Below are positions 8,085 through 28,301 of a stretch of DNA of 64,000 nucleotides, in pieces. Source of the stretch: Mesorhizobium sp. Lineage in GTDB: Bacteria > Pseudomonadota > Alphaproteobacteria > Rhizobiales > Rhizobiaceae. The notes below the pieces were generated by a model that made no database searches, had not been told where the DNA came from, and saw only the letters and a list, made by a program, of their open reading frames with translations. The stretch spans positions 62,001-126,000 of the forward strand of contig NZ_JANJTZ010000042.1 in assembly GCF_024710845.1 (NCBI RefSeq), given 5' to 3'. The position numbers and the translations under genes were made by a program. Within the stretch, counting starts at the first letter, position 1. Each line of letters opens with the position of its first letter.

Positions 8085-9158
8085 TCAGCCGTTCGCGGCC
8101 TTGAGCGTCACGTCCGCGCCCAGAGCGCGATTCACAGCCGGCATGATCTTCTCGCCCCACAGTTCGATCTGTCGCAGCATGGTCTTATCGTCGAAATCGC
8201 CGAGTTGGGTCTGGATTGCGATCTGATCGCATTTGAGAACCTCGATCTCCTCGAGCAGCCGGTCGATGACGCGGTTGACGCTGCCGACCGGTAGATTCGC
8301 GCGCATCGTGTCGAAGGACAGATCCTGCTGGGTCGGGGTCTCCTGCAGCATATAGCCGTCCTGGCTTTGCTGGCGCCGCTGGTGCAGTGCCTCGGACAGG
8401 CGACGCTGATAGCGGGCGTTGTCGAGATAGCTCTCGATCTCACGCTCGCTGTCGCTGGCATAGGCGCAGCGCAGCAGCGCGATCTTTGCGTTGGACGCAT
8501 TCTTGCCTTCGGCTGCGGCCGCCCCTTCGATCGTGGTGCGGAGGTTCCTGATCGCGTCGAGGCCGCCGTGGAGTGCCGTGACGAACAGATTGTGCCCCTC
8601 GCGATAGCCGCGGCCCATCGACCGGGCCGAACCGGCCGCGATCCAGATCGGCGGGGTCGGCTTCTGCACGGCCCGTACAGAGATCGCGGTCGACGGCAGT
8701 TTCAGGTAGGTGCCCTGATGCTCGAAAATCTTCTGGTTAAGGCCCTTAAGGATAATGTCGAGATATTCGGAGAAGACCTTCGGCGCGTCGTCGACGTTGA
8801 CCCCGAAGCGGTCGAACTCGAACTGCTGGTAGCCGGAGCCGACGCCGAGTTCGAGGCGGCCGCCCGACACGATGTCGGCGAAGCCGATCTCGGAGAGAAG
8901 CCGCTGCGGCTGGTAAAGCGGCAGAACGCACACGGCGGTGCCGAGGCGGATCGTCTTCGTCACGCCCGAGCAAGCGGCGACCATCATCAGCGGCGACGGA
9001 ACGAGGCTGTAATTGTTGAAGTGGTGCTCGGCGAACCAGGCCGTGTCGAATCCGGCCTTCTCGGACGCGATCGCCTGATCGATCGAATGGCGGATGACCT
9101 GCTCCGAGGTCTGGTGATAGCCGCGCTGGGCGGCGAGAATGAATGTTCCGAATTCCAT
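8085..9158 (-). CDS. LLM-class (luciferase-like) flavin-dependent monooxygenase
   Basis: The 357-residue TIM-barrel protein belongs to the bacterial-luciferase-like family, which uses reduced FMN supplied by a separate reductase. Visible features are WFAEHHF at residues 41-47, the LGVGSGYQQFEFDRFG segment near 105-120, and a C-terminal helical part. It is the last gene of a ten-gene minus-strand operon that also encodes a flavin reductase and a second LLM enzyme, which fits a two-component oxygenase. The exact reaction (hydroxylation, Baeyer-Villiger oxidation or C-S cleavage) cannot be assigned from sequence. Confidence 0.88.
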   Translation of the reverse strand: MEFGTFILAAQRGYHQTSEQVIRHSIDQAIASEKAGFDTAWFAEHHFNNYSLVPSPLMMVAACSGVTKTIRLGTAVCVLPLYQPQRLLSEIGFADIVSGGRLELGVGSGYQQFEFDRFGVNVDDAPKVFSEYLDIILKGLNQKIFEHQGTYLKLPSTAISVRAVQKPTPPIWIAAGSARSMGRGYREGHNLFVTALHGGLDAIRNLRTTIEGAAAAEGKNASNAKIALLRCAYASDSEREIESYLDNARYQRRLSEALHQRRQQSQDGYMLQETPTQQDLSFDTMRANLPVGSVNRVIDRLLEEIEVLKCDQIAIQTQLGDFDDKTMLRQIELWGEKIMPAVNRALGADVTLKAANG

Positions 9159-9192: not shown

Positions 9193-9486
9193 TCAGGAAG
9201 CGCGCTCGACATGCGCGCGAATTGAGCTGGTCGCCGTGTCGATCCAGCCCTTCTTCGCGGCGTAGTCGACCATCGCGCGATAGCCGGCCATCCATTCGGC
9301 CGTGCGGGGCGCGCCGGGCAGAGTTGGCACGAGATCGACGCCGATCAGCACGTTGGCGTCGTCGACGAAGGTGACGCCGCCGATTGCAGGCCTTGCCTCG
9401 GAACCCGCAATGCGCAGCTTGAAGCCCTTGAAGTCGTCGGCCTCGAGGAGAGAGAGCCCCTTGGACGGAGCGTAGTCGACGATCAT
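9193..9486 (-). CDS. Small conserved-looking protein of unknown function
   Basis: This 97-residue acidic protein (MIVDYAPSKGLSLL at the start) was not recognised. It has no signal peptide or membrane segment. It contains a strand-rich middle (FKLRIAG, VTFVDDANVLIGVDLVPTLPG) and a helical C-terminal half with AEWMAGYRAMVDYAAKKGWID. The start overlaps the end of the upstream SDR-fusion gene by four bases (ATGA), so it is probably translationally coupled and a real gene of the operon. It may be an accessory subunit or a small ligand-binding protein of the pathway. No function is claimed. Confidence 0.6.
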   Translation of the reverse strand: MIVDYAPSKGLSLLEADDFKGFKLRIAGSEARPAIGGVTFVDDANVLIGVDLVPTLPGAPRTAEWMAGYRAMVDYAAKKGWIDTATSSIRAHVERAS

Positions 9487-11084
9487 TCCGCTGCCTCCGA
9501 AGCCGTTTCATCCGAAAAGTCGCTGGCGAAGCCGGCATTGCCGAACGAGGTCCAGCCGCCATCGACATAGAGGATCGAGCCGTTGATGTAGGAGGCTTCT
9601 TCGGACGCAAGGAAAAGCGTCGCGTCGGCGATGTCTTCCGGACGGCCGAGGTCGCCCATCGGGATGCGGCGGCGGATCGCGGCGGCGTCGATGCGGCCGG
9701 ACTGTTCGAGCGCGGCGACGCCGGGCGTGCGGATGTATCCGGGCGCGACCGTCGCGATGCGTATTCCGACGGGTCCGAGTTCGGCCGCCATGCAGCGGGT
9801 CAGGATGTCGATGCCCGCCTTCGACGCGCCATAGGCGTGACGCGGGGCGAAAGGCAGGAACGTGTTGATCGAGCCGGTATTGACGATGACGCCGCCCGAT
9901 CGCATCGACTTCACCGCCTCGCGGGCGCAGAGGAAGGCGCCGGTAAGATTTATGTCCAGCACCTTCTCAAGATCTGCGGCGGTCTGCTCAATCGCCGGAA
10001 CGAACACGTCCGAGATCGCGGCATTGTTGGCCAATATGTCGAGGCCGCCGAAGCGCTGGCGGATCATCGCGAACAGGGCGACGACCTCCGCCTCGGACGA
10101 GACATCAAAAGCATGCGCGAGATGCGCGGGGCCAAGCGATTCCGCGACGGCCGCCGCTCCGTTTCCGTCGCGGTCCGCCACGATGACCGTGTCGCCGTTG
10201 GCGGCGAATTTGCGCGCGACGGCCTCGCCGATGCCCTTCGCGCCGCCGGTCACCAGAACGACGCGCGCCGCCTTCGATGCGGCGGGCCGGTTGAGTTCGA
10301 GGTCGGGCGTGCCGTCTACCGGCGGATGCGCATCGCCCGGCTGGTTGAACGACATCCAGCCGCCGTCGACCGCGAGAACCGAGCCGGTGATGTAGCGGGC
10401 GCGGCTGGACGCCAGGAAATGCAGCGCGGCGGCCATCTCGTCGGGCCTGCCCATACGGCCCATCGGCACGCGGCGGCGCACGGCGGCGAGATCGGCCTTT
10501 CCGGTGCGCTCCAGTTCGGCGACCATCGGCGTGCGGACGTAACCCGGCGCGACGGCGCAGACCCGGATGTCCTTCGAGGCCCATTCGCAGGCCAGCGACT
10601 TGGTGAAGGAGATCAGCCCGGCCTTGGACGCCGAGTAGGCATTGCGGCGGGGATTGCCCAATACGCCGGCGAGCGATGCAGTGTTCACGATCGCGCCGCC
10701 GTGCGGCATGCGCTTCGCGGCCTCGCGCGCCATCACGAATGGGCCGATCAGATTGACCGAGAGCGTGCGGCGGAACAGATCGACGCCGGTGTCGACCGTC
10801 GGAGTCATCGTCGGGCCGAGCGCGGCGTTATTGATCAGCACGTCGACACGGCCATAACGCGCCGAGATCCGGTCGAACATCGCCACGATCTGGGCTTCGC
10901 TGCCGATGTCACACTCCTCGCCGCTATGTGCAGCGCCAATGGAGGCGGCGAGTTCCTGCACGCCGGAGCCCGCCTGGTCCACGGCGATGATCGTGTCACC
11001 GTCGCGCAGGAAGGCGGCGACGAGTTCGCGGCCGATGCCGCCGGCCGCTCCGGTAATGACGACAACGCGTCCCGATCTGTCCAT
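9483..11084 (-). CDS. Two-domain short-chain dehydrogenase/reductase fusion
   Basis: The 533-residue protein consists of two complete classical SDR domains in tandem, each the length of a normal SDR. The first (about 1-250) has TGAAGGIG at 11-18, NNAA at 85-88, Asn111, Ser137 and the YSASK pair Tyr150/Lys154. The second (about 272-520) has TGGAKGIG at 279-286, NNAA at 353-356, Ser405 and Tyr418/Lys422 in YGASK. Both catalytic sets are intact, so each half should be an active NAD(P)-dependent dehydrogenase. About 20 Pro/Asp-rich residues link them. It sits between the flavin reductase and the small unknown gene in one operon. The fusion could couple two successive alcohol oxidations. Confidence 0.92.
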   Translation of the reverse strand: MDRSGRVVVITGAAGGIGRELVAAFLRDGDTIIAVDQAGSGVQELAASIGAAHSGEECDIGSEAQIVAMFDRISARYGRVDVLINNAALGPTMTPTVDTGVDLFRRTLSVNLIGPFVMAREAAKRMPHGGAIVNTASLAGVLGNPRRNAYSASKAGLISFTKSLACEWASKDIRVCAVAPGYVRTPMVAELERTGKADLAAVRRRVPMGRMGRPDEMAAALHFLASSRARYITGSVLAVDGGWMSFNQPGDAHPPVDGTPDLELNRPAASKAARVVLVTGGAKGIGEAVARKFAANGDTVIVADRDGNGAAAVAESLGPAHLAHAFDVSSEAEVVALFAMIRQRFGGLDILANNAAISDVFVPAIEQTAADLEKVLDINLTGAFLCAREAVKSMRSGGVIVNTGSINTFLPFAPRHAYGASKAGIDILTRCMAAELGPVGIRIATVAPGYIRTPGVAALEQSGRIDAAAIRRRIPMGDLGRPEDIADATLFLASEEASYINGSILYVDGGWTSFGNAGFASDFSDETASEAAE

Positions 11085-11129: not shown

Positions 11130-11630
11130 TCAGCCGATCGCGGCGAGCCGCCGGAACGAGCCGTCGCGATAGAGCAAGGCTTCCTCGTCGAGCGACGTGA
11201 CCCCGACGACACGGCCGAAATAGATGTGATGCGTTCCGGAAGGCACCTTTTCGATGACCCGGCAATCGAAGGTCGCCACGGCACCGTCGAGCACGGGCGA
11301 GCCCGTCGCCAGCGAGATCCATCGGCCGTCGGCGAAGCGCTCCTCGGGGCTCAGTTTCGATGTCGAGAAAAGGCGTGCGACCTTGTGCTGTTCGTCCGCC
11401 AGGAAATTGATCGCAAACGCGCCGCTCTCGTCGATCAGGCCATCGGCCGTGGCACTGCGATTGATGCACACGAGCATCGTCGGCGGCTCGGCGGACACCG
11501 AGCAGACCGCTGTCGCCGTCAGCCCGTTGCGCGCCCTGCCGGACCGTGCCGTGATTACGGCCACCGACGAAGTCACCTGCCGCATCGCCGTCTTGAAATC
11601 GGCCTCATTGACGCTGTCGGAAGCAGGCAT
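11130..11630 (-). CDS. Flavin reductase (HpaC-like), partner of the LLM oxygenases
   Basis: This NAD(P)H:flavin oxidoreductase of the split-barrel family would supply free reduced FMN to the neighbouring luciferase-like enzymes. The core begins FKTAMRQVTSSVAVIT, continues with NGLTATAVCSVSAEPPTMLVCI and AFAINFLADEQ, and ends with HHIYFGRVVGV, all family landmarks. With the ATG at 11630 (GGAGG eight bases upstream) the protein is 166 residues, normal for the family. An alternative ATG at 11726, also with a GGAG, would add 32 low-complexity residues. It lies in the ten-gene operon between the NTF2-like gene and the SDR fusion. Confidence 0.88.
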   Translation of the reverse strand: MPASDSVNEADFKTAMRQVTSSVAVITARSGRARNGLTATAVCSVSAEPPTMLVCINRSATADGLIDESGAFAINFLADEQHKVARLFSTSKLSPEERFADGRWISLATGSPVLDGAVATFDCRVIEKVPSGTHHIYFGRVVGVTSLDEEALLYRDGSFRRLAAIG

Positions 11631-11851
11631 CTCCGTGACCTCCGAACTGCGCTCAGCGCCATGCGCGAGCGAGCGCGCCTGCACTGGAGAATGAGGGACC
11701 GGAAGCGCGTTGTGGGCGGTGGCCATGGTCGAACTCCGTCGCGGGAACGCGAAACCCTTCGCCTGTCCGCCTCGAGAGCATTGTGGCCGACGACCTGTCG
11801 CGTTCAAGCAATACAATCATGTGACGGCAACATTCATATTCTTGAATAGCA

Positions 11852-12373
11852 TCAGTCTTTTAGAAGCGCGTAGACGGGATCGTTCGGGTACGCCGCACCG
11901 ACAGGCTGGCGAAGCCCGAAACGCTCGGCATCCGATCCTTCGGGCGGCGTCTGCTCCTCGACCCAATCGTAGACGACCGTTCGCTGTGCGACCCGCCATT
12001 CCCCGCCCCGCTTCTGGAAGGCATCGCAATAGCGCCCCACGAGCAGGAACTGTCGAACGACGCCGTCCTTGGCCGGGCCGCGCTGCAAGGCGTTGAAGTA
12101 GGTCTCGACGCGTGCGTCGGTTGCGCCGCGGAACTCGATCAGGATGTTGGAAACCTGATGGATGTTGCGCGGGTTGGTCTTGAAAACGCCGAGCGCCATC
12201 TGAATGAAGCCCTCGACCGGTCCCGAATAGGCGCCGTGTCGGTCGGTTGCGTCGGGCCAGTAGGAACTGCGAAGCGCCGCCTCGTCGCCACGGTCGATGC
12301 CGCGGCAATAGCGGTAGAGGCAGTCACGGATCGCTTCGCGGTCGAGCAGTTCCGTCAGTCGAGCCTCGTCCAT
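11852..12373 (-). CDS. NTF2-like (SnoaL-type) family protein
   Basis: This 173-residue cone-shaped alpha+beta barrel protein begins with [28 protein letters not shown], typical of SnoaL_4 domain proteins. The block [19 protein letters not shown] follows, and the strand [23 protein letters not shown] closes the barrel. Members include dehydratases, isomerases and dioxygenase small-subunit-like proteins in aromatic, terpene and steroid catabolism. Tyr, Asp and His residues in the N-terminal part could form a pocket, but no reaction can be assigned. It is 10 bases from the acyl-CoA synthetase gene in the same operon. Confidence 0.75.
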
Positions 12374-12383
12374 CTTTCTCTCC

Positions 12384-14498
12384 TTAAGCCTCGCGGCGGG
12401 CCGGCACGATCAGGGCGTCGAGGGCAATGACGCCCTTGCCCTTCTCCATCACCCGAACCGGATTGAGGTCGATGCTCTCGACCGTATCGGCATTGGCGGC
12501 CGCGAAGGCCGACAGGGCCGACAGCATTCTCGCAAGCGCATCAATGTCGGATGGAGGGGCTCCGCGTACGCCTTCCAGCATCGCGAAGCCGCGGATCTCG
12601 CGGATCATGCGATGAGCTTCGGCCACGTCGAAGGGAGCGGCGCGGAAGGTGACGTCCTTCAACACCTCCACAAACACGCCGCCCAGGCCGAACATCACGA
12701 CCGGTCCGAAGGCCGGATCGCGCACGACGCCCGCGATGATCTCGACGCCGCCCGAGATCATCGGTGAAACCAGGATTCCCTCGATGCGGGCGTCGGGCCG
12801 CTTCTCCCGGGCGCGGGCGAAGATCGTTGCGGCGGCCTCGCGCGCCTCGGCTTCGTCCTTCACCCCGACGATGACGCCACCGATCTCGGTCTTGTGGGCA
12901 ATGTCGGGCGACGAGATCTTGAGCACGACCGGGAAGCCGACCGAGGCGGCGACTTTTCCGGCGTCGTCGCCTTGCCTAACTAGCCCCTCCTTCGGGAAGG
13001 TGACGCCCGCGGACGCCAGGATTGGCTTGGCTTCGCGCTCGCTGAGCGCCTCGCCCGAAAGCGCAACCTTCTTTCCCGGCGCAAGGTCGGACCGGCTGGC
13101 CGCGGCGCGGTCGAAGCTCTCCTTGAAGTGCACCATCGCGCCGAGCGTCTTCATCAGCGCCGAACCGTCCTGGGCGACGATGAAGCCCTTGTCCTCGTAG
13201 GTGCGGACGATCTCGTCGGGCGCGGTCATGGTCAGCGCCATGATCGTGTCGCGCGAGGCGGCGGCCGCCGTCTCCAGCGCCTGCCGCAGCTTGCCGGAGA
13301 AGGTGGGGCTCGCCGGCCCGCTGCCGAAGATGCCGGCGAAGAAGCCGTAGTCGCCCTTCTCGAGCATGGCCGATATGAAGCTCGTCATCAGCGGCAGGTC
13401 GGTGACGGCCTGGGCCGTGGCGTCGACGGGATTGACCGGCGAGGCATAGGGCAGCATCGCCTTCAACTCCTGCTGCGCCTTTTCCGGCATCGGCTTGACG
13501 TCGAGCCCGGCGGTCTCCGCGTCGTCGGCCATCTGGATGCCAAAGCCGCCGGACATGGTGAAGATGCCGAGCGAATTGCTCTTCGGATAAACGCCGCGCG
13601 AGCAAGCGGCTGCGATGTCGATCTGTTCGGCTGTCGTGGAGGCGCGCCAGACGCCGTATTGGCGGAACACGGCGTCGAAGACCGCGTCGGAACCGGCCAA
13701 TGCCGCGGTGTGCGAACTGACCGCATGCGCGCCGACCTCGGAGCGGCCGACCTTCATGAACACGATCGCCTTGCGGCGCTCGCGTGCGATCTCCAGCGCT
13801 TCGATAAAGGTGTCCCGGTCGCGGATGCCCTCGGCGTAGGCCATGACGACGTTGACGTCCGGCTGCTCGACCATCCAGCGCAACGCTTCCGCGACATTGA
13901 TGTCACACTCGTTGCCGGTGGTGACGAGGTAGTTCATGCCGAGGCCGCGCAAGCGGGCGAGATACATGAGATGCGAGCCGTAGGCGCCGCTCTGCGAGAC
14001 GATACCGATCGGGCCCGGGGTGACGAGGCCGCTGTCCAGCATGGCCGAGAAGGTGCCGTAGAAACCGATCGAGGAGTTGAAGACGCCGAGGCAATTGGGG
14101 CCGAGAAGCCGCATGCCGGAGGCGCGCGCGATGCCCACCAACTCGTCCTGCATCGCCCGGCCGGCCTCGTCGGTCTCCGCGAAGCCCGCCGAGAAGACGA
14201 TCGCCGCCTTGACGCCCCGCTCGGCGCAATCGCGCACCGCCTGGACGGTGGCGGCCGCCGGCACGGCAAGGATCGCAACATCGGGCGCGGCGGGAAGATC
14301 TCCGAGGGAGGCGTACGCCTTCACGCCCTGCACGGTCTCGCGCTTCGGGTTGACCGGATAGATGCCGCCAGCGAACCCGCTCTCGCGCAGGTAACGAAGC
14401 GGGCGTCCGCCGATGCGGGTGACGTCGTCGGATGCGCCGACGAGGGCCACCGACTTCGGCGACAGCAGGGCGGAGATGGAACCGGTGCGCGTCAGCAT
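12384..14498 (-). CDS. ADP/NDP-forming acyl-CoA synthetase (acetate--CoA ligase family)
   Basis: The 704-residue protein fuses the alpha- and beta-type domains of ADP-forming acyl-CoA synthetases. It has an N-terminal CoA-binding Rossmann domain ([19 protein letters not shown]), succinyl-CoA-ligase-like domains with the phosphohistidine loop [11 protein letters not shown], and a C-terminal ATP-grasp domain (about 480-700) including [21 protein letters not shown]. It would convert a carboxylic acid plus CoA and ATP to an acyl-CoA. In this cluster it probably activates a ring-opened acid for beta-oxidation. Its start directly abuts the stop of the lactonase-like gene, indicating tight coupling. 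Confidence 0.92.
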
Positions 14499-15407
14499 TC
14501 AGGCGATTTCCGTCTTGTTGCTCTCAAGCGCGGATTGTCCGAAGCGGGCTTCGGGAAGCCCACGGACGCCGAGCCCGTCGATGGCGAAGAGCATGCCGCC
14601 CTCGGGGTGCTTCGATATCGCCCGGCCGGAGCCGGAATCCTTGATCGACGTGACGAAGAGCGTGGAAAGATCCGCCCCGCCGAAGGCAATGCAGGACGGC
14701 ATGTCGGTCGGCGCATCGATCATCCGGTCAAGCGAGCCGTCGGGCAGGAAGCGGGCGATCTTGCCGGTCTGAATGAGGCAGACCCAGATACCGCCCTCGG
14801 CGTCGACCGTGGCACCGTCGGGACCGGACCCATACGGCTCGGTGTCGATCAGGACGCGGTAGCCCTTCAGCGGCGCGTCGTCGGTCGAATAGTCGTATGC
14901 GCGGATCTTCCGTTCGAGACTGTCGGCGAAATACATGGTCGCGCCATCCGGGCTGAAGCAGAGCGCATTGGAGATACGGATGCCTGTGGCAAATGCGTCG
15001 GCGCGCCCGGTCGCGTCGACACGGTAGAGCCTGCCGAGCGGATCGGCGTGGATACCCATCGAGCCGCACAGGAACCGCCCTTGCCGGTCGTTCTTGCCGT
15101 CGTTGAAACGCACTGCAGGATCAACCGGGTCGGGCCGGAATACAGGCGAGAAGGTACCTGTCCCGAGGTCAAGACGATAAATACCGTCGACCAGCCCCGC
15201 GACGAGCGTATCGCCGGCGCCAAGCGCTATCGAGCCCACGGTGGACGGACATTGCCAGGAATGGAAAGCGCCGGTCTCTGGATCATGCGCGCGGATCAGA
15301 CGCGAGACGCCATCGACCCAGTAGAGGCGCTGGCGCCGGCCGTCCCATACTGGGCTTTCGCCCAGAAGGTCCGCCTTGGCCGAGACACGGCTCACTCGAA
15401 ACGACAT
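14499..15407 (-). CDS. SMP-30/gluconolactonase-like lactonase
   Basis: The 302-residue six-bladed beta-propeller belongs to the SMP-30/LRE family, whose members hydrolyse sugar and other lactones with one divalent metal. Candidate metal ligands are visible in the standard places: Glu in GESPVWD near residue 17, Asn in RFNDGKND, Asn in ISNALCFSPDG and the following Asp. No signal peptide is present, so it acts in the cytoplasm. The neighbours suggest hydrolysis of a lactone produced by a Baeyer-Villiger-type oxygenase, which is inference. The gene follows an intra-operon terminator after the binding-protein gene. Confidence 0.85.
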   Translation of the reverse strand: MSFRVSRVSAKADLLGESPVWDGRRQRLYWVDGVSRLIRAHDPETGAFHSWQCPSTVGSIALGAGDTLVAGLVDGIYRLDLGTGTFSPVFRPDPVDPAVRFNDGKNDRQGRFLCGSMGIHADPLGRLYRVDATGRADAFATGIRISNALCFSPDGATMYFADSLERKIRAYDYSTDDAPLKGYRVLIDTEPYGSGPDGATVDAEGGIWVCLIQTGKIARFLPDGSLDRMIDAPTDMPSCIAFGGADLSTLFVTSIKDSGSGRAISKHPEGGMLFAIDGLGVRGLPEARFGQSALESNKTEIA

Positions 15408-15485: not shown

Positions 15486-16712
15486 TTACTTGACGAGCGG
15501 GCAAGCGCTTTCGGCAACCGGCCGCCAGACGTCTTCGGCCGGGATGGTGGCCGTGACGGTGTAGTAGTCGTAGGGCTGCTTGACGTCCGCCGGCGCCTTG
15601 ATGGTCACGGCATACATCGGACGCATCACCTGGCCGTCGGCGCGGATCTTGACGTCCTTCATCTGGAAGTCGTTGACCGGCAACTCGTGCATCTTGGCGA
15701 CGACCTTCTCGCCGTCGTCGGTACCGGTCTCCTTGACCGACTTCAGGTAGTGCGTGATCGCGCTGTAGGTACCCGACATGGTCTCGTTCGGGATACGGTC
15801 GCGGAAGCGCTTCTTGAATTTGTCGGCGAAGGCGCGGGTCTCGTCGTTCAGGTCCCAGTAGCCGGGGGTGACGATCGACATGCCCTTTACGGCCTCGAGG
15901 CCGATGCCGTGGACCTGGTTGATCTGCAGGCCGAGCGCGACGACCTTCTGGCCGCCTGCCTGGATGCCGAATTCTTGCGCCTGCTTCACCGCGTTGGCGA
16001 AGTCAGAGCCCGAATTCGCCAGCACGATCACCTTGGCGCCGCTCGCCTGGGCTTGAAGCAGGTATGACGAGAAGTCGTTGGAGTTCAGCGGATGTAGCAC
16101 CGAGCCCAGCACCTTGCCGCCGCCTGCTTCGATGAACTTGGTCGCGTCGGCCTGCCAGGTCTTGCCGAAGGTGTAGTCGACGGTGATGAAGTAGAAGGAG
16201 TCGTTTCCAGCCGCGAGCATCGACTTGATGACGCCCTTGGCGAGCGAATAGGTGTCGAGAACCCACTGCGTTCCCATCGGCGAGCAGGCATCGTCGGTCA
16301 GCGCCGAGGAGGCGGTGCCGGCCAGCATGTAGGGCTTCTTCTTCTCGGCCATGATCTTCTGGATGGCGAGCGCGATCGACGAGGCCGAGCCGCCGACGAT
16401 GGCGTCGACGCCTTCCTGGTCAACCCACTTCTGCGCGATCGCCGCGCCGATGTCGGGCTTGTTCTGGTCGTCTGCGATGACCAGTTCGATCTTCTTGCCG
16501 TTGACCTCGCCGCCGAAGTCCTCGATCGCCATCTTGGCGGCCTCGACCGTGCCCGGGCCACCATTGTCGGCGTAGGGGCCGGACTGGTCGTTCATCACGC
16601 CGATCTTGACGACATCGCCGGAGATCTCCTGGGCAAGGACTGCCCCCGCCGACAGGATGGTCGAGGCGGCGAGCAATGCCCCCACGACCGCGAAACGACT
16701 GGATTTCTGCAT
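15486..16712 (-). CDS. ABC transporter substrate-binding protein, Liv (branched-chain amino acid) type
   Basis: This periplasmic binding protein has 408 residues including a signal peptide (MQKSSRFAVVGALLAASTIL, cleavage near VLAQ). The mature protein begins with ISGDVVKIGVMNDQSGPYAD, the normal start of Peripla_BP_6 proteins. The ATG at 16712 follows GGAGGAAATCAC. Proteins of this group in catabolic clusters often bind aromatic or alicyclic acids rather than amino acids. No binding protein accompanies the Liv permeases and ATPases at 19.9-23.3 kb, so this one very probably serves them. A terminator follows the gene. Confidence 0.93.
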   Translation of the reverse strand: MQKSSRFAVVGALLAASTILSAGAVLAQEISGDVVKIGVMNDQSGPYADNGGPGTVEAAKMAIEDFGGEVNGKKIELVIADDQNKPDIGAAIAQKWVDQEGVDAIVGGSASSIALAIQKIMAEKKKPYMLAGTASSALTDDACSPMGTQWVLDTYSLAKGVIKSMLAAGNDSFYFITVDYTFGKTWQADATKFIEAGGGKVLGSVLHPLNSNDFSSYLLQAQASGAKVIVLANSGSDFANAVKQAQEFGIQAGGQKVVALGLQINQVHGIGLEAVKGMSIVTPGYWDLNDETRAFADKFKKRFRDRIPNETMSGTYSAITHYLKSVKETGTDDGEKVVAKMHELPVNDFQMKDVKIRADGQVMRPMYAVTIKAPADVKQPYDYYTVTATIPAEDVWRPVAESACPLVK

Positions 16713-16797
16713 GTGATTTCCTCCACTTGCGCTCCCCGGGGTCATTTTCCCGCCCCCTGAAGCTGGTTGCACACCCGGCGCCTGCCGCCGGCTGATC

Positions 16798-17556
16798 TCA
16801 CGAAAATGCGAACGTCATCGCGCCGTCGACGAGCATCATGTCGCCGCTGATCCAGCTCGATTCATTGCCGGCCAGGAAGACCGCGGCGTTGGCGATGTCC
16901 TCGGGCTCGCCGAGCCGTCCGAGCGGCACCTTCTGGCGCCGCCGCTCCCAGCCGGCCTCGTCGACCACGAGATTGGCGCCGTCTGTGCGAGTCGACCCCG
17001 GCGCGATGGCGTTGACGCGGATATTCAGCGGGCCGAACTCGGCGGCGGCCGAGCGGGTCGAGGCCTGGACCGCCGCCTTCACGGAGCTGTACATGATACC
17101 GTTCTTGAACGCGATCAGGGCCGCCGGCGAGGCGATGTTGATGATCGAGCCGCCACCGGCCTTCTCCATCTGCGGCACGATCGCCTGGTAGCCCCAGATG
17201 ACGCCCTTGAAGCCGACGTCGATCATCAGGCCGATCGTCTTCTCATCCTGCTCCAGCAGCGAGCCGTAGCGGTTGAACATCGCGTTGTTGACCAGGATGG
17301 TCGTCGGGCCGAATGCCTCCTTCAGCTTCGCCGCCGCTGCGAAGACATCCTCGCGCTTGCCGACATTGCCGACGAGCGGGATCGCCCTGCCCCCGGCTGT
17401 TTTGATCGCATCCGCGGCTTCCGCTGAGATTTCGGGCTTCAGGTCGAGCACGCCGACGGCGGCTCCTTCGCGGGCGAATGCCTCGGAGATCGCCCGGCCT
17501 ATGCCGCGGCCTCCGCCGGTCACCAGCGCGACGCGCCCTTCGAGCCTTCCACCCAT
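16798..17556 (-). CDS. Short-chain dehydrogenase/reductase
   Basis: This classical 252-residue SDR has the cofactor motif TGGGRGIG near residues 13-20, NNAMF, the serine in INIASPAAL, and the YSSVK catalytic pair. It ends in DGAMTFAFS. The start at 17556 has the strong ribosome-binding sequence GGAAGGGAAG. The Asp in GVLDLKPE after the second strand suggests a preference for NAD(H). It sits between an LLM monooxygenase and the binding protein in one operon, consistent with oxidation of an alcohol intermediate. The substrate is unknown. Confidence 0.9.
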   Translation of the reverse strand: MGGRLEGRVALVTGGGRGIGRAISEAFAREGAAVGVLDLKPEISAEAADAIKTAGGRAIPLVGNVGKREDVFAAAAKLKEAFGPTTILVNNAMFNRYGSLLEQDEKTIGLMIDVGFKGVIWGYQAIVPQMEKAGGGSIINIASPAALIAFKNGIMYSSVKAAVQASTRSAAAEFGPLNIRVNAIAPGSTRTDGANLVVDEAGWERRRQKVPLGRLGEPEDIANAAVFLAGNESSWISGDMMLVDGAMTFAFS

Positions 17557-17594
17557 GAACTTCCCTTCCAAAACTGCGTCGTGGTTCTATGCGC

Positions 17595-18908
17595 TCAGCC
17601 GGCCTTGGCCGCCTTGGCGAAGGTTTCGCGCGAGGCCATCGGGATGGCGCCGCCGCGCGTCGGATCGGCATAGGTCCCGCCGGCCGCGGCGTAGTCCTTG
17701 CCGGCGCGCCGCTCGAGGACGATGCCGATGGATTCGACGTTGGGGACGTCCTGCGGCGCGAGCTCGGCCATGCGCGACTTGCGCGCCAGCGCCTTCTCGA
17801 TGAAGGGGGCGAGTTCCTCGTCCTTCTTCTGGACGCGCTCGTCCTCGCGCTCCTTCAGCACCGGCATGACCTCGCTGGCGAAGAGTTCAAGCGACTCGCA
17901 GATATGCTCGTGCCTGTTCATCCCGGACTGCTGGATGAAGATCATCTGGTCGATGCCGACATCCGCATAGCTCTTCAGGTGCTCGCGCACGCTCGCCGGC
18001 GTGCCGATCGAGCCGGAGCCGGGCGTCTCCTTCATGTCGTCCTTGATGGTGAGGAAGCGCTTCCACAGGTTGGTCACGCCCGGCTTGTGCTCGCCGTAGA
18101 CCGCATAGTGGGCGATCGAGTAGCCGAAGAAGCGGAAGCCATCGAGGCCGCGGCGGATCGCCTCGTCATGGTTCTCATGCACCATCATGCCGTTGAGCGT
18201 GGCGAAGTTGGCGTTGACCGCGTGGCCGATCGGCACGCACTCGTCGGATTTGATGAGGGCGTAGTATTCGTCGCGCCAGAGCTTCGCCTGGCTCGCCTCG
18301 ACGAAGCCGAAGACCAGCGCGCCGACGCCGTGGCGGGCGGCGCGCAGGATGCTTTCGCGGCGCGAGCAGGCCATCCAGATCGGCGGATGCGGCTTCTGCA
18401 CCGGCTTCGGCACGACGTTTCGCACCGGCATCGAGAAGAACTGCCCCTCGTACCCCGGATACGGGCGCATCGACATCATGTTGGCAGTCTGCTCGACGCC
18501 TTCGCGCCACATCGCCGTCTTCTGCTCCGGCTCAATGCCGAAGCCGTGCATCTCGATCAGGGAGCCGGATTCGCCCGTGCCCCATTCGACGCGGCCGCCG
18601 GACACGAGATCGAGCGTCGCAAGGCGCTCGGCGACGCGGGCGGGATGATTGTATTTCGGCGATGACAGGCAGATGCCGTGGCCGATGCGCATGTTCTTCG
18701 TGCGCTGCGAGACCGCGCCCAGAAAAACCTCCGGAGCCGAGGAGTGCGAATACTCTTCGAGAAAGTGGTGTTCGACCTCCCACATGTGGTCGAAGCCGAG
18801 CCTGTCGGCGAGCTCGATCTGGTCCAGCGCATCGTTGAAAAGCTTGAGTTCGCTCCCCTCCTCCCAAGGCTGGGGGAGCTGATGTTCGTAGAACACTCCG
18901 AGCTTCAT
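17595..18908 (-). CDS. LLM-class flavin-dependent monooxygenase, first gene of the ten-gene operon
   Basis: The 437-residue luciferase-like protein begins MKLGVFYEHQLPQPW and has the family's VEHHF segment at about 45-49. GHGICLSSPKYNHPARVAERLATLD and GRVEWGTGESG follow, lining the flavin site. It is longer than the paralogue at 8.1 kb and only distantly similar to it. A C-terminal charged helix (DERVQKKDEELAPF) extends beyond the barrel. The ATG at 18908 has a GGAGGAAACC upstream; a longer in-frame extension lacks family similarity. It heads the operon and faces the IclR gene across 190 bases that contain an inverted repeat. Confidence 0.9.
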   Translation of the reverse strand: MKLGVFYEHQLPQPWEEGSELKLFNDALDQIELADRLGFDHMWEVEHHFLEEYSHSSAPEVFLGAVSQRTKNMRIGHGICLSSPKYNHPARVAERLATLDLVSGGRVEWGTGESGSLIEMHGFGIEPEQKTAMWREGVEQTANMMSMRPYPGYEGQFFSMPVRNVVPKPVQKPHPPIWMACSRRESILRAARHGVGALVFGFVEASQAKLWRDEYYALIKSDECVPIGHAVNANFATLNGMMVHENHDEAIRRGLDGFRFFGYSIAHYAVYGEHKPGVTNLWKRFLTIKDDMKETPGSGSIGTPASVREHLKSYADVGIDQMIFIQQSGMNRHEHICESLELFASEVMPVLKEREDERVQKKDEELAPFIEKALARKSRMAELAPQDVPNVESIGIVLERRAGKDYAAAGGTYADPTRGGAIPMASRETFAKAAKAG

Positions 18909-19057
18909 GGTTTCCTCCGGAACGCGGGCGATCCCTGTCGGGTCGCCCGTCTTGTTCTTGCGTCGAGCCGTCGCATTCGAGGCGCCGGACTTGACTGCGG
19001 GCACCATGTCATGCGCAGTCTTTCGAGGCCATAAGCATTGCGTACGTGCTGCGCAGT

Positions 19058-19098: not shown

Positions 19099-19878
19099 AT
19101 GCTGACGTCACAGGTCAAGTCGGCGACCCGAGCGATCGAAATACTCGAATATTTCAAGACAGTTAGGCAGCCGCGGTCGATGTCGGAGATCGCGCTGGCG
19201 CTTGGCTATCCGCAGTCGAGCAGCACGGTGCTGCTGAAAACGCTCGTCACGCTCGGCTACCTCAATTACGACCGGCGCGGCAGGCTCTATTTCCCGACCC
19301 CGAAAGTGACGTCACTCGGCGACTGGATTCCGCGCGCGCTGTTCGGCAACAGCCGGGTCCTCGAAGCGATGCACGATGTGCACGCGGCCACCGGCGAAAC
19401 GGTTTCGATCGGCACCAAGAACGACGTCTATCTGCAATATGTGCAGATCATACAGTCGATCCACGCACTGCGTTTCCATGTCGACGAAGGCACGCTCAGG
19501 CCGCTGACGCAGTCGGCCGTCGGCTGGACGCTGATGTCCACCCTGCCCGACGACAAGATCGACAACATCGTGCGCCGGGCAAACATCGCGACCGAGAAGG
19601 CGTCCGACCGGGTGAAGGTTCCCGATATGATGGCGAAGGTCCGGGAGATCCGCGAGAAGGGCTACTGCTCGGCAGAGAACGTGCCGTTCCTCGGCGGCGG
19701 GACGATCTGCATGCTTTTGCCGATCACCATCCAGGGACAGCCCGTGGTGCTCGGTCTCGGCGGTGCCGCGGAGCGGATCCGCGCCAACCACGACCGCTAC
19801 CTCGCGACGCTGCGCCGGGCGGTGAAATCGGTCCAGCCGAACGACCCCTTCGAACAGCCGATCGACATTGAGTTCTGA
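19099..19878 (+). CDS. IclR-family transcriptional regulator
   Basis: The 259-residue regulator has an N-terminal winged helix-turn-helix (about residues 5-65) with ATRAIEILEYFKTV and MSEIALALGYPQSSSTVLLKTLVTLGYL. A C-terminal effector-binding GAF-like domain (about 80-250) contains GETVSIGTKNDVYLQYV and ICMLLPITIQGQPVVLGLGG. A GGAGGAGCGG ribosome-binding site precedes the ATG. It is divergent from the ten-gene operon and convergent with the Liv operon, so it sits at the centre of module A. It is the likely regulator through the TTCAC-N4-GTGAA sites. The effector is probably a pathway substrate or intermediate. Confidence 0.92.
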   Translation: MLTSQVKSATRAIEILEYFKTVRQPRSMSEIALALGYPQSSSTVLLKTLVTLGYLNYDRRGRLYFPTPKVTSLGDWIPRALFGNSRVLEAMHDVHAATGETVSIGTKNDVYLQYVQIIQSIHALRFHVDEGTLRPLTQSAVGWTLMSTLPDDKIDNIVRRANIATEKASDRVKVPDMMAKVREIREKGYCSAENVPFLGGGTICMLLPITIQGQPVVLGLGGAAERIRANHDRYLATLRRAVKSVQPNDPFEQPIDIEF

Positions 19879-19918: not shown

Positions 19919-20893
19919 TCAGTGGCCCGACGTCGCAGCGGCGGGCTGAGCGGCTGGCGCTTCCGTGCGATTGCGGCGGCGCAGGTAGCGGACCAGCGCC
20001 GACAGTTCGCCTACGATACCGCGGCGGAAGAACACGATGACCACCAGCAGGATGACGCCCTGCGAAACCAGCGCCCATTCGCCGAAGCCGGCGAGATAGT
20101 CGTTGAGCAGGATGATGCCCGCAGCGCCGAACACCGGGCCGACCAGCGTGCCGAGACCGCCCAGCAGCGTCATCAGGATGACTTCACCCGAAATCGGCCA
20201 GGACGCGTCGGTCAGCGTCGCGAACTGGTAGACCACTGCCTTCATGCCCCCGGCCACGCCCGCCATCGACGCGGAGATGATGAAGGCCACGAGCTTGATC
20301 TTCTCGGGATCGAAGCCGAGCGACTCGACGCGGGGCTGGTTGTCGCGCACCGCCTTCAGCACCTCGCCATAGGGCGAGTGGACGACGCGGTAGTAGACGA
20401 AAACGCACAGCGCCGTGATCGCCAGCACGACGTAATAGAGGGTGGAGTTCGACGTAATGTCGACGAAGCCGAACAGGTCGTTGCGCGGGATCGCCTGCAT
20501 GCCGTCTTCGCCGCCGGTGAACGGCGCCTGGAGGAAGATGAAGTAGATGAATTGCGAGAAGGCGAGCGTGATCATCGCGAACTGGATGCCCTGGCGGCGC
20601 ATCGTCAGATAGCCGATGACGAGGCCGAGCAGGCCTGCCGCCGCGCCGCCACCCAGGATCGCCAGTTCGGTTGAGATCGGCGTGGCCTTCAGGATCTGCC
20701 CGGTGATGTAGGCCCCGCCGCCGAAGAACATGGCATGGCCGAAGCAGAGCAGGCCAGTGTAGCCCAAGAGCAGGTTGAACGAGCAGGCGAAGATGACGAA
20801 GCACATGACCGTCATCAGCGTCACGGAGTAGAAATAGAACGGTGCGGCGATCGCCAGCACGGCCACGACGGCCAGGAGGAGCAGCCGAACCAT
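19919..20893 (-). CDS. ABC transporter permease, LivM type
   Basis: This 324-residue inner-membrane permease is the last gene of the Liv operon. It starts MVRLLLLAVVAVLAIAAPFYFYS and has the conserved LLLGYTGLLCFGHAMFFGGGAY and VVHSPYGEVLKAVRDNQPRVESLGF segments, the latter being the cytoplasmic coupling loop. The tail after the last helix is basic and then Ala/Pro-rich. The start shares one base with the livH-type stop (TGATG). With the LivH-type partner it forms the membrane pore of the importer. Confidence 0.93.
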   Translation of the reverse strand: MVRLLLLAVVAVLAIAAPFYFYSVTLMTVMCFVIFACSFNLLLGYTGLLCFGHAMFFGGGAYITGQILKATPISTELAILGGGAAAGLLGLVIGYLTMRRQGIQFAMITLAFSQFIYFIFLQAPFTGGEDGMQAIPRNDLFGFVDITSNSTLYYVVLAITALCVFVYYRVVHSPYGEVLKAVRDNQPRVESLGFDPEKIKLVAFIISASMAGVAGGMKAVVYQFATLTDASWPISGEVILMTLLGGLGTLVGPVFGAAGIILLNDYLAGFGEWALVSQGVILLVVIVFFRRGIVGELSALVRYLRRRNRTEAPAAQPAAATSGH

Positions 20894-21774
20894 CAGACGG
20901 ACTCCTTGTCGGCGAAGATGCCGGCCGGGCGCAGGTAGAGCGAGATGATCATGAACATGAAGATCACGACGCTCGCCGCTTCGGGATAGAACACCTTGGT
21001 GAGGCCCTCGACCAGGCCGAGCATGTAGCCGGTGATGGCGGCGCCGACGATCGAACCCATGCCGCCGATCACGACCACCGCGAAGACGACGATCATCAGG
21101 CTGGAGCCCATCGAGGGCGAGACCTGGTAGATCGGCGCGGCGAGCACGCCGGAGAGGCCCGCCAGGCCGACGCCGAAGCCGTAGGTGAGCGTCATCATCT
21201 TGGGCACGTTGATGCCGAAGGCCTCGACGATCTGCGGCTTCTCGTTGGCGGCGCGCAGGTAGGCGCCGAGCTTGGTGTGCTCGATCAGGAGCCAGGTGCC
21301 GACGCAGGTGACCAGCGAGAACACCACCACCCACAGGCGGTAGTAGGGCAGGAACATGAAACCGAGATTGATGCCACCGGGCATCGGATTGTCGTAGGGC
21401 AGGCCCGTCGAGCCGTATTTGTAGCGGACAAGGCCTTCGACGATGAGCGCGACAGCGTAGGTTGCGAGCAGCCCGTAGAGGTGGTCGAGGCCCTGCAGCG
21501 GCCTGAGGAGCAGGCGCTCCAACACCATACCGCTGATCGCCACCAGCACCGGCGCGAGGACCAGCGACGGCCAGTAGCCGATGCCGAGGTAGTTCAGGAG
21601 CAGCCACGCGATGAAGGCGCCGAGCATGTACTGGGCGCCGTGCGTGAAGTTCACGACGCTCATCAGGCCGAAGATGATGGCAAGCCCCATCGACAGCATC
21701 GCGTAGAACGAGCCGTTGATGAGGCCGAGCAGGACCTGCCCGAAGAGCAGTTGGGTACTGATACCTTCGAACAT
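20893..21774 (-). CDS. ABC transporter permease, LivH type
   Basis: This 293-residue permease has about eight membrane segments. It begins with FGQVLLGLINGSFYAMLSMGLAIIFGLM followed by NFTHGAQYMLGAF, the standard LivH start. The coupling segment HTKLGAYLRAANEKPQIVEAFGI contacts the ATPases. It lies three bases downstream of the LivF-type ATPase gene and overlaps the LivM-type gene by one base. Confidence 0.93.
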   Translation of the reverse strand: MFEGISTQLLFGQVLLGLINGSFYAMLSMGLAIIFGLMSVVNFTHGAQYMLGAFIAWLLLNYLGIGYWPSLVLAPVLVAISGMVLERLLLRPLQGLDHLYGLLATYAVALIVEGLVRYKYGSTGLPYDNPMPGGINLGFMFLPYYRLWVVVFSLVTCVGTWLLIEHTKLGAYLRAANEKPQIVEAFGINVPKMMTLTYGFGVGLAGLSGVLAAPIYQVSPSMGSSLMIVVFAVVVIGGMGSIVGAAITGYMLGLVEGLTKVFYPEAASVVIFMFMIISLYLRPAGIFADKESV

Positions 21775-21777
21775 GGC

Positions 21778-22524
21778 TCACACCCCCAGGTAGGATTTGA
21801 CGCGGCCCATGTCGGCCTCGAGTTCGGCGTTGGTCAGGATGTCGACGACTTTGCCGTTCTCGACGACGACGTGTCGGTCGGCGACCATTCGCGCGAAGCG
21901 CAGGTTCTGCTCGACCAGGACGATGGTGAACCCCTGCGCCTTCAGCCGCTGGATGATCTCGCCGATCTCCTTGACGACAACCGGCGCCAGCCCCTCGCTC
22001 GGCTCGTCCAGCAGCAGCAGGCGCGAGCCGGTGCGCAGGATGCGGGCGATGGCCAGCATCTGCTGCTCGCCCCCCGATAGCTTCGTTCCCTGGCTGCCGG
22101 CGCGCGCCTTGAGGTTCGGGAAGGTGGCGTAGAGCTGTTCGTCGGTCATGCCGCCTTCGCGCAGGACCGGCGGCAGGAACAGGTTCTCCCGCACCGAGAG
22201 CGAGGAGAAGATCGCGCGCTCCTCGGGGCAATAGCCGATGCCGAGGCGCGCGATCTGGAAGGTGCGCTTGCCGACCAGTTCCTCGTCGCGGAAGCGGATC
22301 GAGCCGGTGCGCTTCTGGACGATGCCCATGATCGAACGCAGCGTCGTGGTCTTGCCCGCGCCGTTGCGGCCGATGAGGGTGAGAAGTTCGCCTTCGCGCA
22401 CGTCGAAGGACATGCCGTGCAGGACCTTCGATTCCGCGTACCAGGCGCTGAGATTGTCGACCTTCAGCATCACCGCCGCGAAAGCGGCAGCGGCGGGCTC
22501 CCGCGCCATCGCAAGACTATTCAT
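21778..22524 (-). CDS. ABC transporter ATP-binding protein, LivF type
   Basis: This 248-residue ATPase has Walker A GRNGAGKTT at 52-60, signature KLSGGEQQML and Walker B LLLLDEPSEGLAP, the typical LivF form. A 20-residue Ala-rich leader precedes the domain. The start at 22524 is favoured because GGGAGG lies upstream and because it overlaps the LivG-type stop by eight bases, a normal coupling distance. An internal ATG (MLKVDNLS) is the alternative. Confidence 0.93.
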   Translation of the reverse strand: MNSLAMAREPAAAAFAAVMLKVDNLSAWYAESKVLHGMSFDVREGELLTLIGRNGAGKTTTLRSIMGIVQKRTGSIRFRDEELVGKRTFQIARLGIGYCPEERAIFSSLSVRENLFLPPVLREGGMTDEQLYATFPNLKARAGSQGTKLSGGEQQMLAIARILRTGSRLLLLDEPSEGLAPVVVKEIGEIIQRLKAQGFTIVLVEQNLRFARMVADRHVVVENGKVVDILTNAELEADMGRVKSYLGV

Positions 22525-23314
22525 CGACGCCTCCCATATAGGCGGTCACCACCGCGGGGTTCTTCGAAACCTCGGCGTAGTTGCCCTCGGCAAGGACCTC
22601 GCCATGCTGAAGGACGGTGATGCGGTCGCACAGCGTCGAGACGACCGACAGATTGTGTTCGACCAGAAGCACGGTCCGTCCCACCGCCGCTTGTTTGATC
22701 AGTTCAGTGATCGGGCCCACATCCTCGTGGCCCATGCCGGCCGTCGGCTCGTCGAGCAACATGACGCGCGGCTCGAGCGCCAGCGTCGTGGCGATCTCCA
22801 ACGCGCGCTTCTTGCCGTAGGAGAGTTCGGCGGCCGTCACGTCGCGGCTGCCGGCGAGGCCGACCTGCTCGAGCAGTTCGTCGGCGCGGGCATTGAGCGG
22901 TGCGACCGCGCGCAGCGAGCGCCAGAAATGATAGGCCGTGCCGTACTTGGACTGCAGCGCGACGCGGACATTCTCGCGGGCGGTCAGATGCGGAAAGGTC
23001 GCGGAAATCTGGAACGACCGCACCATACCGCGCCGCGCCACCTCGGAGGTGCGCAGCCGCGAAATGTCCTCGCCGTCGAATACGATGCTTCCCCTGGTCG
23101 GCGCCAGCGTCTTCGTCAGCAGGTTGAAGCAGGTGGTCTTGCCGGCGCCGTTCGGACCGATGAGAGCATGGATCGACCCCCGCCTGACGGCGAGGTTCAC
23201 ATCCTTGACCGCGGCGAATCCGGCGAACTCCTTGGTGAGCCCCTTGGCCACCAGCACATTGTCCGCATCCCGTGCGGTCTCGGTCCTGGACAGGACTGCA
23301 GCGCTTGTCGCCAT
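22517..23314 (-). CDS. ABC transporter ATP-binding protein, LivG type
   Basis: This 265-residue ATPase has Walker A GPNGAGKT at 53-60, signature ELSYGKKRALEIA and Walker B VMLLDEPTAGMG followed by HNLSVVSTLCDRITVL. The 'LSYG' signature and length are typical of LivG. The ATG at 23314 has GGGAGGAGA upstream. It follows the FadE-like gene by 60 bases in one operon, so uptake and beta-oxidation genes are co-expressed. Confidence 0.93.
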   Translation of the reverse strand: MATSAAVLSRTETARDADNVLVAKGLTKEFAGFAAVKDVNLAVRRGSIHALIGPNGAGKTTCFNLLTKTLAPTRGSIVFDGEDISRLRTSEVARRGMVRSFQISATFPHLTARENVRVALQSKYGTAYHFWRSLRAVAPLNARADELLEQVGLAGSRDVTAAELSYGKKRALEIATTLALEPRVMLLDEPTAGMGHEDVGPITELIKQAAVGRTVLLVEHNLSVVSTLCDRITVLQHGEVLAEGNYAEVSKNPAVVTAYMGGVDE

Positions 23315-23374
23315 GTCTCCTCCCGTCGATCGTGCTCGCCTCCACGGCAAGCCGGTCGCTTTCTTGGGCTTCTC

Positions 23375-24532: not shown

Positions 24533-25308
24533 CAGATCGTGTCCTTGAACTCGGCCGGGCGCTTCTCGACGAAGGCGCGCATGGCTTCCTTGGAGTCCTC
24601 GTGGCGGGTCATTTCGACGGTCAGGTTCTGCTCGAAGCGGTAGCCGTCGCGCAGCGGCATGTGCTCGACCGTGTTGATGGCGCGCTTGGCCAGGCTCAGC
24701 GCCTTCGGGCTCTTGGAGGCGATCGAGCGCGCGATCTTCATCGCCTCGTCCATCAGATCTTCCAGCGGCACGCAGGCTTCGATGATGCCGCGGCGATAGG
24801 CTTCGGCGGCCGGGACGCGATAGCCGGTCAGGATCATGCGGCGCGCGAGCGATTTGGGGAAGAGGCTCATCGTATGCCGCGCGCCACCCATCAGGCCGAT
24901 GTCGATCTCGGGAAGCCCGAACACGGCATTGTCGGAGGCGAGGATGATGTCGGCGGCGACGATCGGCCCCATGCCGGCGCCCAGCGCCGGGCCGTTGACG
25001 GCGGCGATGACCGCCTTGCCGCATTCCATGATGCAGTTCGAGACCTCGCGGGTGCGTCGCAGGTGGCGGTAGGTCTCGCCCTTGATGTCACCGACCGACT
25101 GGCGGTTCTTGATGTCGGCGCCGGCCGAGAAGATCTTGCCGCGGCCGGTGACAACGATGCAGCGCACCTCCGGCGTGTCGTTGAGCTCGTCGAAGACCTC
25201 GATCAGCTCTTCCGCGAATTCCTTCGAGTAGGCGTTGACCGGGGGGTTGTCGAGCGTGACGACGGCCACCTTGTCGGCGATGTCGACCTTGATGAGCTTG
25301 TTCTGCAT
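24532..25308 (-). CDS. Enoyl-CoA hydratase/isomerase family protein
   Basis: The 258-residue crotonase-fold protein has the oxyanion-hole segments AGADIKNR and NGPALGAGMGPIVAADIILASDNAVFGLPEIDIGLMGG. The Glu in LPEIDIG matches one of the usual catalytic positions. The position expected to hold the first catalytic Glu reads as Met/Gly-rich, so isomerase or dehydrogenation-product hydration are both possible. It lies between two acyl-CoA dehydrogenases in one operon, so it most probably acts on their product. Confidence 0.9.
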   Translation of the reverse strand: MQNKLIKVDIADKVAVVTLDNPPVNAYSKEFAEELIEVFDELNDTPEVRCIVVTGRGKIFSAGADIKNRQSVGDIKGETYRHLRRTREVSNCIMECGKAVIAAVNGPALGAGMGPIVAADIILASDNAVFGLPEIDIGLMGGARHTMSLFPKSLARRMILTGYRVPAAEAYRRGIIEACVPLEDLMDEAMKIARSIASKSPKALSLAKRAINTVEHMPLRDGYRFEQNLTVEMTRHEDSKEAMRAFVEKRPAEFKDTI

Positions 25309-25324
25309 GTTCTTCCTCCCGCGA

Positions 25325-28193: not shown

Positions 28194-28301
28194 GGGGTTC
28201 CTCCGTTGCGGCCGCCGTGTTTCGCGCAGCCACTTGTTTTGCGGCGGAAAATCCAGAGCGCGGGCGGTCAAGTCAATTCCAACTCGAATGCGAAGGACAG
28301 T

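Follow-up and report, generated by a model that had tools for sequence, protein, structure and literature searches.

Proteins that carry two short-chain dehydrogenase/reductase (SDR) domains in one chain are represented among solved structures. In yeast MFE-2 both tandem SDR domains are catalytic, and the whole enzyme is peroxisomal and fused to a hydratase. Malonyl-CoA reductase is a reductive, NADPH-dependent enzyme, whose SDR2 domain is described as non-catalytic (PMC10470521). The curated family NCBIfam NF005067.0 (PRK06484.1) also spans two SDR domains, and is called 'short chain dehydrogenase', a name without function. Here we describe an SDR-SDR protein related to this family, encoded on a 64,000-nucleotide stretch of the soil bacterium Mesorhizobium sp. 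(contig NZ_JANJTZ010000042.1, positions 62,001 to 126,000), hereafter referred to as the window. Its gene is located on the minus strand (9483..11084; read from 11084 to 9483, ATG to TGA) and encodes 533 amino acids, which are divided into half 1 (residues ~1-246), a conserved linker (~247-271) and half 2 (~272-514). We propose, with belief and doubt about evenly balanced, that the protein is a fused NF005067 SDR, forming a built-in dimer with two NAD-type sites, which performs two alcohol oxidations around a Baeyer-Villiger step, within a catabolic operon that would degrade some alcohol or ketone.

By its sequence the SDR-SDR is a member of NF005067/PRK06484, an already known family, so its two-domain architecture is not new. 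It scores 725.5 bits against the curated cut-off of 713, a small margin, with residues 3-523 aligned on positions 7-523 of 524. Pfam recognizes two PF13561 (adh_short_C2) and two PF00106 (adh_short) stretches, and the Pfam scan found no hydratase domain. These matches, together with the 48-row alignment presented below, bear out the original prediction of a 533-residue protein with two full classical SDR domains, each with a cofactor motif, Ser, Tyr and Lys. The fusion had also been called unusual: this holds inside its own genome, where among 80 PF13561 matches it is the only neighbouring pair listed in one shared open frame (548 amino acids), but not for the architecture as such, given that NF005067 spans both domains and that tandem SDRs have been solved. 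Literature searches on PRK06484 and on tandem or fused SDRs returned no title or abstract about the NF005067 family.

A 10-sequence profile was scanned against named bacterial and archaeal genomes, in which 105 places encode a relative, and the best-matching 80 were kept as named loci; as the scan patterns are located in half 2, lone N halves could not be detected. A single open reading frame (ORF) of at least 500 amino acids was found in 78 of the 80 loci, the exceptions being a broken copy (L101) and a locus cut by the contig end (L107). In the 48-row alignment the window protein is joined by 47 named loci; near copies, L067, L075, L101 and L107 were excluded. The linker residues N247, Q248, G250, A252 and E263 are invariant in all 48 rows, which means that the joint between the halves is itself conserved. 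A missed stop and restart between the halves, giving two genes, had been named beforehand as the refutation of the fusion, and is ruled out by the uninterrupted frame in the 78 loci. More generally, the chance that two separate genes were joined through a sequencing or assembly error is vanishingly small, this being contradicted both by these frames and by the five invariant linker residues.

The two halves share a single origin. Each has the other as its top match in its own genome (48% identity; 231.4 and 233.2 bits), the runners-up among the 78 and 79 matching places reaching 153.8 and 144.6 bits. A tree was built with 19 sequences of each half, N and C, and with single SDRs in 20 rows, of which two represent the same gene. 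The N halves formed one clade (100/98), the C halves another (100/99), and both were joined at 95/83; all single SDRs were taken from the own genome, so that closer single-domain relatives may exist elsewhere. The reciprocal best matches and this tree rule out a fusion of two unrelated SDRs. The simplest reading of the sequences is one duplication with fusion, which would have preceded the spread of the gene among Rhizobiales, Paracoccaceae, Acinetobacter and Pseudomonas.

Each half displays the marks of a classical SDR, namely the TGxxxGxG motif and the Asn-Ser-Tyr-Lys tetrad, half 1 in 48/48 rows and half 2 in 43 to 48 of the 48 rows depending on the position. Half 1 retains T11, G12, G16, G18, D36, N86, N111, S137, Y150 and K154 in every row and N85 in 47. 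Half 2 retains G280, G286, D304, N353, Y418 and K422 in every row, N379 and S405 in 47, T279 in 46 and G284 in 43, and its residue 354 is Asn in 24. The catalytic sites of both halves are conserved, that of half 2 slightly more loosely, and this conservation over 48 homologues supports the earlier proposal of two halves that are probably both active. An acidic residue ending strand beta-2 of an SDR is a sign of NAD(H) preference; D36 and D304 are acidic at this position, which points to NAD(H) as the predicted cofactor of both halves.

The AlphaFold single-chain model, computed from 48 sequences, has a pLDDT of 88.7 and a pTM of 0.89, the latter indicating, for a two-domain chain, a defined domain arrangement. 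The top seven Foldseek matches to this model are tandem SDR chains, with 2et6 highest (TM 0.72 by query). VIA-align, in whose list the absence of a family carries no weight, placed the N part of malonyl-CoA reductase (8hi6) first (Z 33.7, 2.7 Å, 453 residues) and 2et6 fifth (Z 30.8, 3.3 Å, 438 residues, model residues 2-509 aligned). With respect to the pseudo-dimer that had been suggested, the model favors a defined packing, as judged from its pTM and from comparison of whole folds, in which solved tandem SDRs align over almost the entire length. The halves would be packed against one another as a dimer within a single chain, which may channel two oxidations, as had also been suggested, and may be unable to mix with the cell's other SDRs.

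The family is sparsely distributed. Among 289 genomes sampled from the class, only the own genome showed a match at E 1e-120, and among 14 control genomes Caulobacter vibrioides passes the NF005067 cut-off. Eleven of 61 relatives had a match at E 1e-60, ten of them (own genome included) at full length with 67-100% identity, and the eleventh with 38% identity and an internal stop. At least 80% of the SDR-SDR is covered by a match in 73 records of the plasmid collection, several of them in two or three pieces and thus not all intact; Rhizobium, Sinorhizobium and Mesorhizobium account for 68 of the 73. The search for proteins with the same domain pair and for their neighbours, which accompanied the original prediction as a way to check it, has thereby yielded a curated family, 80 named loci and a conserved gene context.

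The gene context was surveyed by tblastn of the window proteins on the fetched loci, using set thresholds. The 80 loci are composed of 33 catabolic loci, defined by a single SDR and an SMP-30 protein, 44 symbiotic loci, defined by nif or nod neighbours, and three others (L029, L100 and L107). In the window, the genes on the minus strand are ordered as follows: a single-domain SDR (16798..17571; PF13561), an ABC transporter substrate-binding protein (15486..16772; PF13458), an SMP-30/gluconolactonase-type protein (14499..15407; PF08450), which is a putative lactone or ester hydrolase, an acyl-CoA ligase of the ADP-forming type (12384..14498; CoA_binding_2, Succ_CoA_lig, ATP-grasp_5), a SnoaL/NTF2-like protein (11852..12373; PF13577), a flavin reductase (11130..11816; PF01613), the SDR-SDR, a small protein of 97 amino acids (9193..9486; no Pfam or NCBIfam match) and a luciferase-like monooxygenase of the LLM class (8085..9158; PF00296). 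GGAGG immediately precedes the ATG of the SDR-SDR, and its stop overlaps the ATG of the 97-residue gene. The flavin reductase, matched by the NCBIfam models RutF and HpaC below their cut-offs, would supply FMNH2 to the LLM, a putative type II Baeyer-Villiger monooxygenase (BVMO).

All 33 catabolic loci encode the single SDR and the SMP-30 protein, and most of them also the substrate-binding protein (30), the CoA ligase (29), the flavin reductase (28) and SnoaL (27); P450 and nif/nod genes are found in none. L029, a locus cut at one end, carries the CoA ligase, SnoaL, the flavin reductase, the small protein and the LLM. The distribution of the oxygenases among the catabolic loci is exclusive: nine have the LLM, 17 a type I BVMO, none both and seven neither; in L086, which belongs to these seven, a 31% match to the LLM lies ahead of the single SDR. 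Zero overlap has a chance of 0.0003 if the loci are taken as independent, which related loci are not. An FMO-like protein is encoded in four loci without LLM (L066, L069, L085 and L088); the proteins of three of the four were scanned and matched the PtlE Baeyer-Villiger model with 271-286 bits, far below its cut-off of 1100. The L066 protein (11743-13485) aligns along its length with phenylacetone monooxygenase (E 3.4e-174) and also matches steroid monooxygenase (E 1.8e-161). A separate reductase is unnecessary for type I BVMOs, and the five catabolic loci lacking the flavin reductase all carry a BVMO. That an LLM and a BVMO, enzymes of different fold, are mutually exclusive around one operon suggests that they perform the same reaction; since the BVMO is the partner with a known reaction, the shared reaction is proposed to be a Baeyer-Villiger oxidation. 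In Caenibius tardaugens, the LLM and the BVMO of one cluster both perform the Baeyer-Villiger step on progesterone (PMC12239570). The window LLM and flavin reductase may constitute a type II Baeyer-Villiger system.

In the pathway that we propose, one half of the SDR-SDR would oxidize an alcohol to a ketone. The monooxygenase encoded nearby, in this operon the LLM assisted by the flavin reductase and in other loci a type I BVMO, would convert this ketone to a lactone or ester. This product would be opened by a hydrolase, either the SMP-30 protein or a different one, the other half would oxidize the freed hydroxyl from alcohol to carbonyl, and the CoA ligases and acyl-CoA dehydrogenases would then take over with CoA ligation and beta-oxidation. 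The fusion, the conservation of the protein, the common origin of its halves, the synteny and the exclusion between LLM and BVMO are observed, whereas the packing of the domains (from the model), the order of these reactions, the assignment of steps to the halves and the nature of the substrate are what we infer.

Several observations weigh against this proposal. The operon's further SDR could perform one of the two oxidations; of the catabolic loci, 33 in number, only 9 encode the LLM, and in 7 the fetched flanks contain no oxygenase of either kind. Only nine of the 17 BVMO loci have the BVMO on the same strand as the SDR-SDR and no more than ~2 kb behind it; five have it on the opposite strand ahead of the operon and three ~8 kb downstream, so that it does not always occupy the place of the LLM. 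The flavin reductase is retained in 12 of these 17 loci, and the five without it are all Bradyrhizobium and hence not independent. In what we take to be the BVMO fingerprint motif, the His is replaced by Arg in L066 and L088, L069 being the regular one of the three checked. The window LLM falls below every NCBIfam cut-off shown, and a sequence comparison with the PDB places bacterial luciferase-type chains at the top, none of the 11 listed being named as a Baeyer-Villiger enzyme. Regarding the fold, single SDR chains reach Z values of up to 30.7, tied with 2et6, but over one half only (~240 residues); by sequence, the best PDB match is the single-domain SDR 4ni5, and the 60 best matches listed each cover one half at most.

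The halves could also catalyse the same reaction type on related substrates, for instance two stereoisomers or chain lengths, instead of successive steps, an arrangement exemplified by the tandem MFE-2 dehydrogenase. Consistent with this, the halves are most alike in the substrate-loop segment (22/36 identical) and the C-terminal part (19/32), compared to 52/127 across the cofactor part and 20/48 across the catalytic part. The substrate loop is also closer between the halves than between the N half and 24 single-domain loci from the genome, which include repeats (8-19/36). Such a likeness is, however, uninformative if successive intermediates resemble each other, and the segment ahead of the catalytic Tyr differs conservedly between the halves (SLAGVLGNPRRNAY versus SINTFLPFAPRHAY), which suggests different pockets. 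We regard halves of like function as unlikely, while giving the idea appreciable weight. It is quite improbable that one half is a non-catalytic scaffold stabilizing the other, in the manner of SDR2 and SDR4 of malonyl-CoA reductase: this enzyme is among the closest folds and its SDR2 is reported to be non-catalytic (PMC10470521), and substitutions occur in half 2 at residue 354 (24/48 have Asn) and at G284 (kept in 43/48), positions at which half 1 is invariant, but N379, S405, Y418 and K422 of half 2 are retained in 47-48 of the 48 rows.

A further explanation concerns the LLM, which could be an ordinary FMNH2-dependent hydroxylase whose product is oxidized by the SDR-SDR. The LLM class is diverse and the best solved matches are of the luciferase type; the mutual exclusion of LLM and type I BVMO in 33 loci of the same operon family argues against this role, which we consider rather unlikely. 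For the catabolic loci we retain, as the preferred reading, two oxidations around a Baeyer-Villiger step.

The symbiotic loci, many of them near copies from Mesorhizobium, have another gene content. All 44 encode SnoaL and the LLM, 38 a P450, 38 a ferredoxin, 42 NifQ and 42 RpoN2; the flavin reductase is present in one, and the single SDR, SMP-30 and CoA ligase in none. The SDR-SDR is flanked by SnoaL and the LLM on plasmids from R. tropici, M. loti and S. fredii, where it adjoins nif and rpoN; nod genes or nodD-like regulators are nearby in two of the three, and P450 plus ferredoxin in the latter two. In the full-length tree (quick method, midpoint root) 13 symbiotic rows form one clade (SH-aLRT 100) nested in catabolic rows, support for the branch that joins them to the closest catabolic rows being only 86. 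A frame-broken flavin reductase remnant is located between SnoaL and the SDR-SDR in M. albiziae (L035, 9400-10000) and is a trace of the catabolic gene order. The S. meliloti ml66 plasmid (L138, 5033-7056) has kept SnoaL and the LLM along with a P450 remnant, and tblastn recognized no SDR-SDR there; R. leguminosarum TA1 has an SDR-SDR and a P450 remnant. The symbiotic module thus decays in places. For the organism of the window itself, a part in nitrogen fixation was rejected, its genome having no nifH match over the cut-off (best 25.9 bits versus 394.35).

A strict sigma-54 pattern gave no match within 4500 bases ahead of the SDR-SDR in any scanned locus, and misses nifH promoters too. The pattern was widened to [CT]GG and TG[CA] after a one-mismatch scan ahead of the module's first gene and of nifH had given candidates; since it was chosen after seeing both site sets, nifH is no independent control, while the catabolic loci (31/33 ahead of the single SDR, 20/33 ahead of the SDR-SDR) and the shuffles had no part in the choice. 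Sites were counted in 22 symbiotic-type loci, hand-picked from 48 (the 44 symbiotic loci, L100 and L014-L016). A -24/-12-like box precedes the module's first gene in 17 of the 22, and in 15 (13/19 after merging identical upstreams) the box is accompanied by a TGT-N10-ACA element located 85-125 bases before it. The same scan gave, for box and pair respectively, 0.14 and 0.0 in shuffles; in catabolic loci it gave 0/31 ahead of the single SDR and 0/20 ahead of the SDR-SDR, and for nifH 4/5. The pair is missing in seven loci (L014, L015, L067, L071, L081, L096 and L101). A search of up to 1500 bases upstream of L014, L096, L015, L067, L081 and L137-L140, restricted to 75 bases for L137, added one box (L081, -964) and no element at the right spacing; L138, L139 and L140 have no box within this distance. 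These later loci without the pair slightly weaken the suggestion, made below, of a pathway reused in symbiosis.

CYP127A, which we take to be a rhizobial P450 name, may apply to the P450 of these loci, and no relevant literature was found under the NGR234-style names y4vG to y4vJ, which we presume to denote the symbiotic gene set. In M. loti R7A, msi332-331 (P450 and ferredoxin) has a NifA/RpoN promoter among nif genes, and its bacteroid expression was 446.6 units in the wild type versus 14.6 without nifA2, an intact gene copy being retained in the strain (PMC3538637). A NifA-controlled P450 gene, cpx, is named in PMC4999443, and other P450 genes are strongly up in bean bacteroids (PMC6421345). 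For CYP127A3, of rhizobial type, testosterone hydroxylation is described, the name CYP127A being used for Mesorhizobium japonicum (PMC8197338). Nodule bacteria appear to have reused the tandem SDR enzyme. Tentatively, and with doubt somewhat outweighing belief, we suggest that a catabolic Baeyer-Villiger pathway, acting on an alcohol of the alicyclic, aryl or steroid-like type, lost on a single occasion all but SnoaL, the tandem SDR and the LLM. It would then have gained a P450 and a ferredoxin, come under NifA/sigma-54 control and spread on symbiosis plasmids and islands, so that bacteroids would remodel a specific compound in the nodule with the SDR-SDR as central dehydrogenase.

Additional genes in the window surround this operon. 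A second LLM-class protein (17595..19007, minus strand; PF00296) precedes the single SDR, and at the equivalent position several relatives show ~30% matches to the first LLM. A divergent IclR-type regulator (19099..19878, plus strand; PF01614, PF09339) is followed, on the minus strand, by an ABC permease and two ABC ATPases (20893..23350; PF02653, PF00005), two acyl-CoA dehydrogenases with an enoyl-CoA hydratase (23375..26458) and an AMP-forming acyl-CoA ligase (26562..28517; PF00501; PRK07008 model 806.9 versus a cut-off of 822). A second ABC permease domain is located inside ORF 19919-22231, and an IclR gene is found opposite the single SDR in L066 and L104 too. The small 97-residue protein has a tblastn match in 11/33 catabolic and 2/44 symbiotic loci; in Acinetobacter baylyi (L104, 11406-12710) one frame, of uncertain start codon, reads the small-protein region together with an enoyl-CoA hydratase domain. 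An Rfam scan of the window gave no match.

Judged from synteny, the value of the SDR-SDR would lie in its pathway context. The gene neighbourhood gives the function-less family NF005067 a testable job, and the symbiotic copies offer a route to asking what oxidative metabolism accompanies nitrogen fixation in nodule rhizobia. The question of oxidation in nodules is raised, in the available portions of PMC3538637, PMC4999443 and PMC6421345, for P450s, ferredoxins and other oxidases and not for the tandem SDR; most subscription literature lies outside this coverage.

Among known systems, msi332-331 of R7A resembles the symbiotic module in that a P450 and a ferredoxin, the same kind of pair as heads the module, are under NifA/RpoN; the published R7A table names only these two proteins, neither of which is in the window operon, and the likeness is one of description (PMC3538637). 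Type II Baeyer-Villiger systems pair an LLM with a flavin reductase, and the LLM of the progesterone pdc cluster performs the reaction; the window operon has an LLM and a PF01613 flavin reductase. The pdc cluster is described, in the text available, as four genes (BVMO, LLM and two regulators), with a tandem SDR not among them (PMC12239570). The N part of malonyl-CoA reductase (8hi6, 8aew, 6k8v) is likewise a tandem SDR pair, but of the four SDR domains of that enzyme only SDR1 and SDR3 are catalytic, whereas both domains of the SDR-SDR carry the catalytic residues, and in this the two systems differ. The tandem (3R)-hydroxyacyl-CoA dehydrogenase of yeast MFE-2 (2et6) has, like the SDR-SDR, two SDR domains per chain, and its inter-domain arrangement matches that of the predicted model; with 26% identity over the aligned part and without a fused hydratase domain of the MFE-2 type, the SDR-SDR is not counted as an MFE-2 member.

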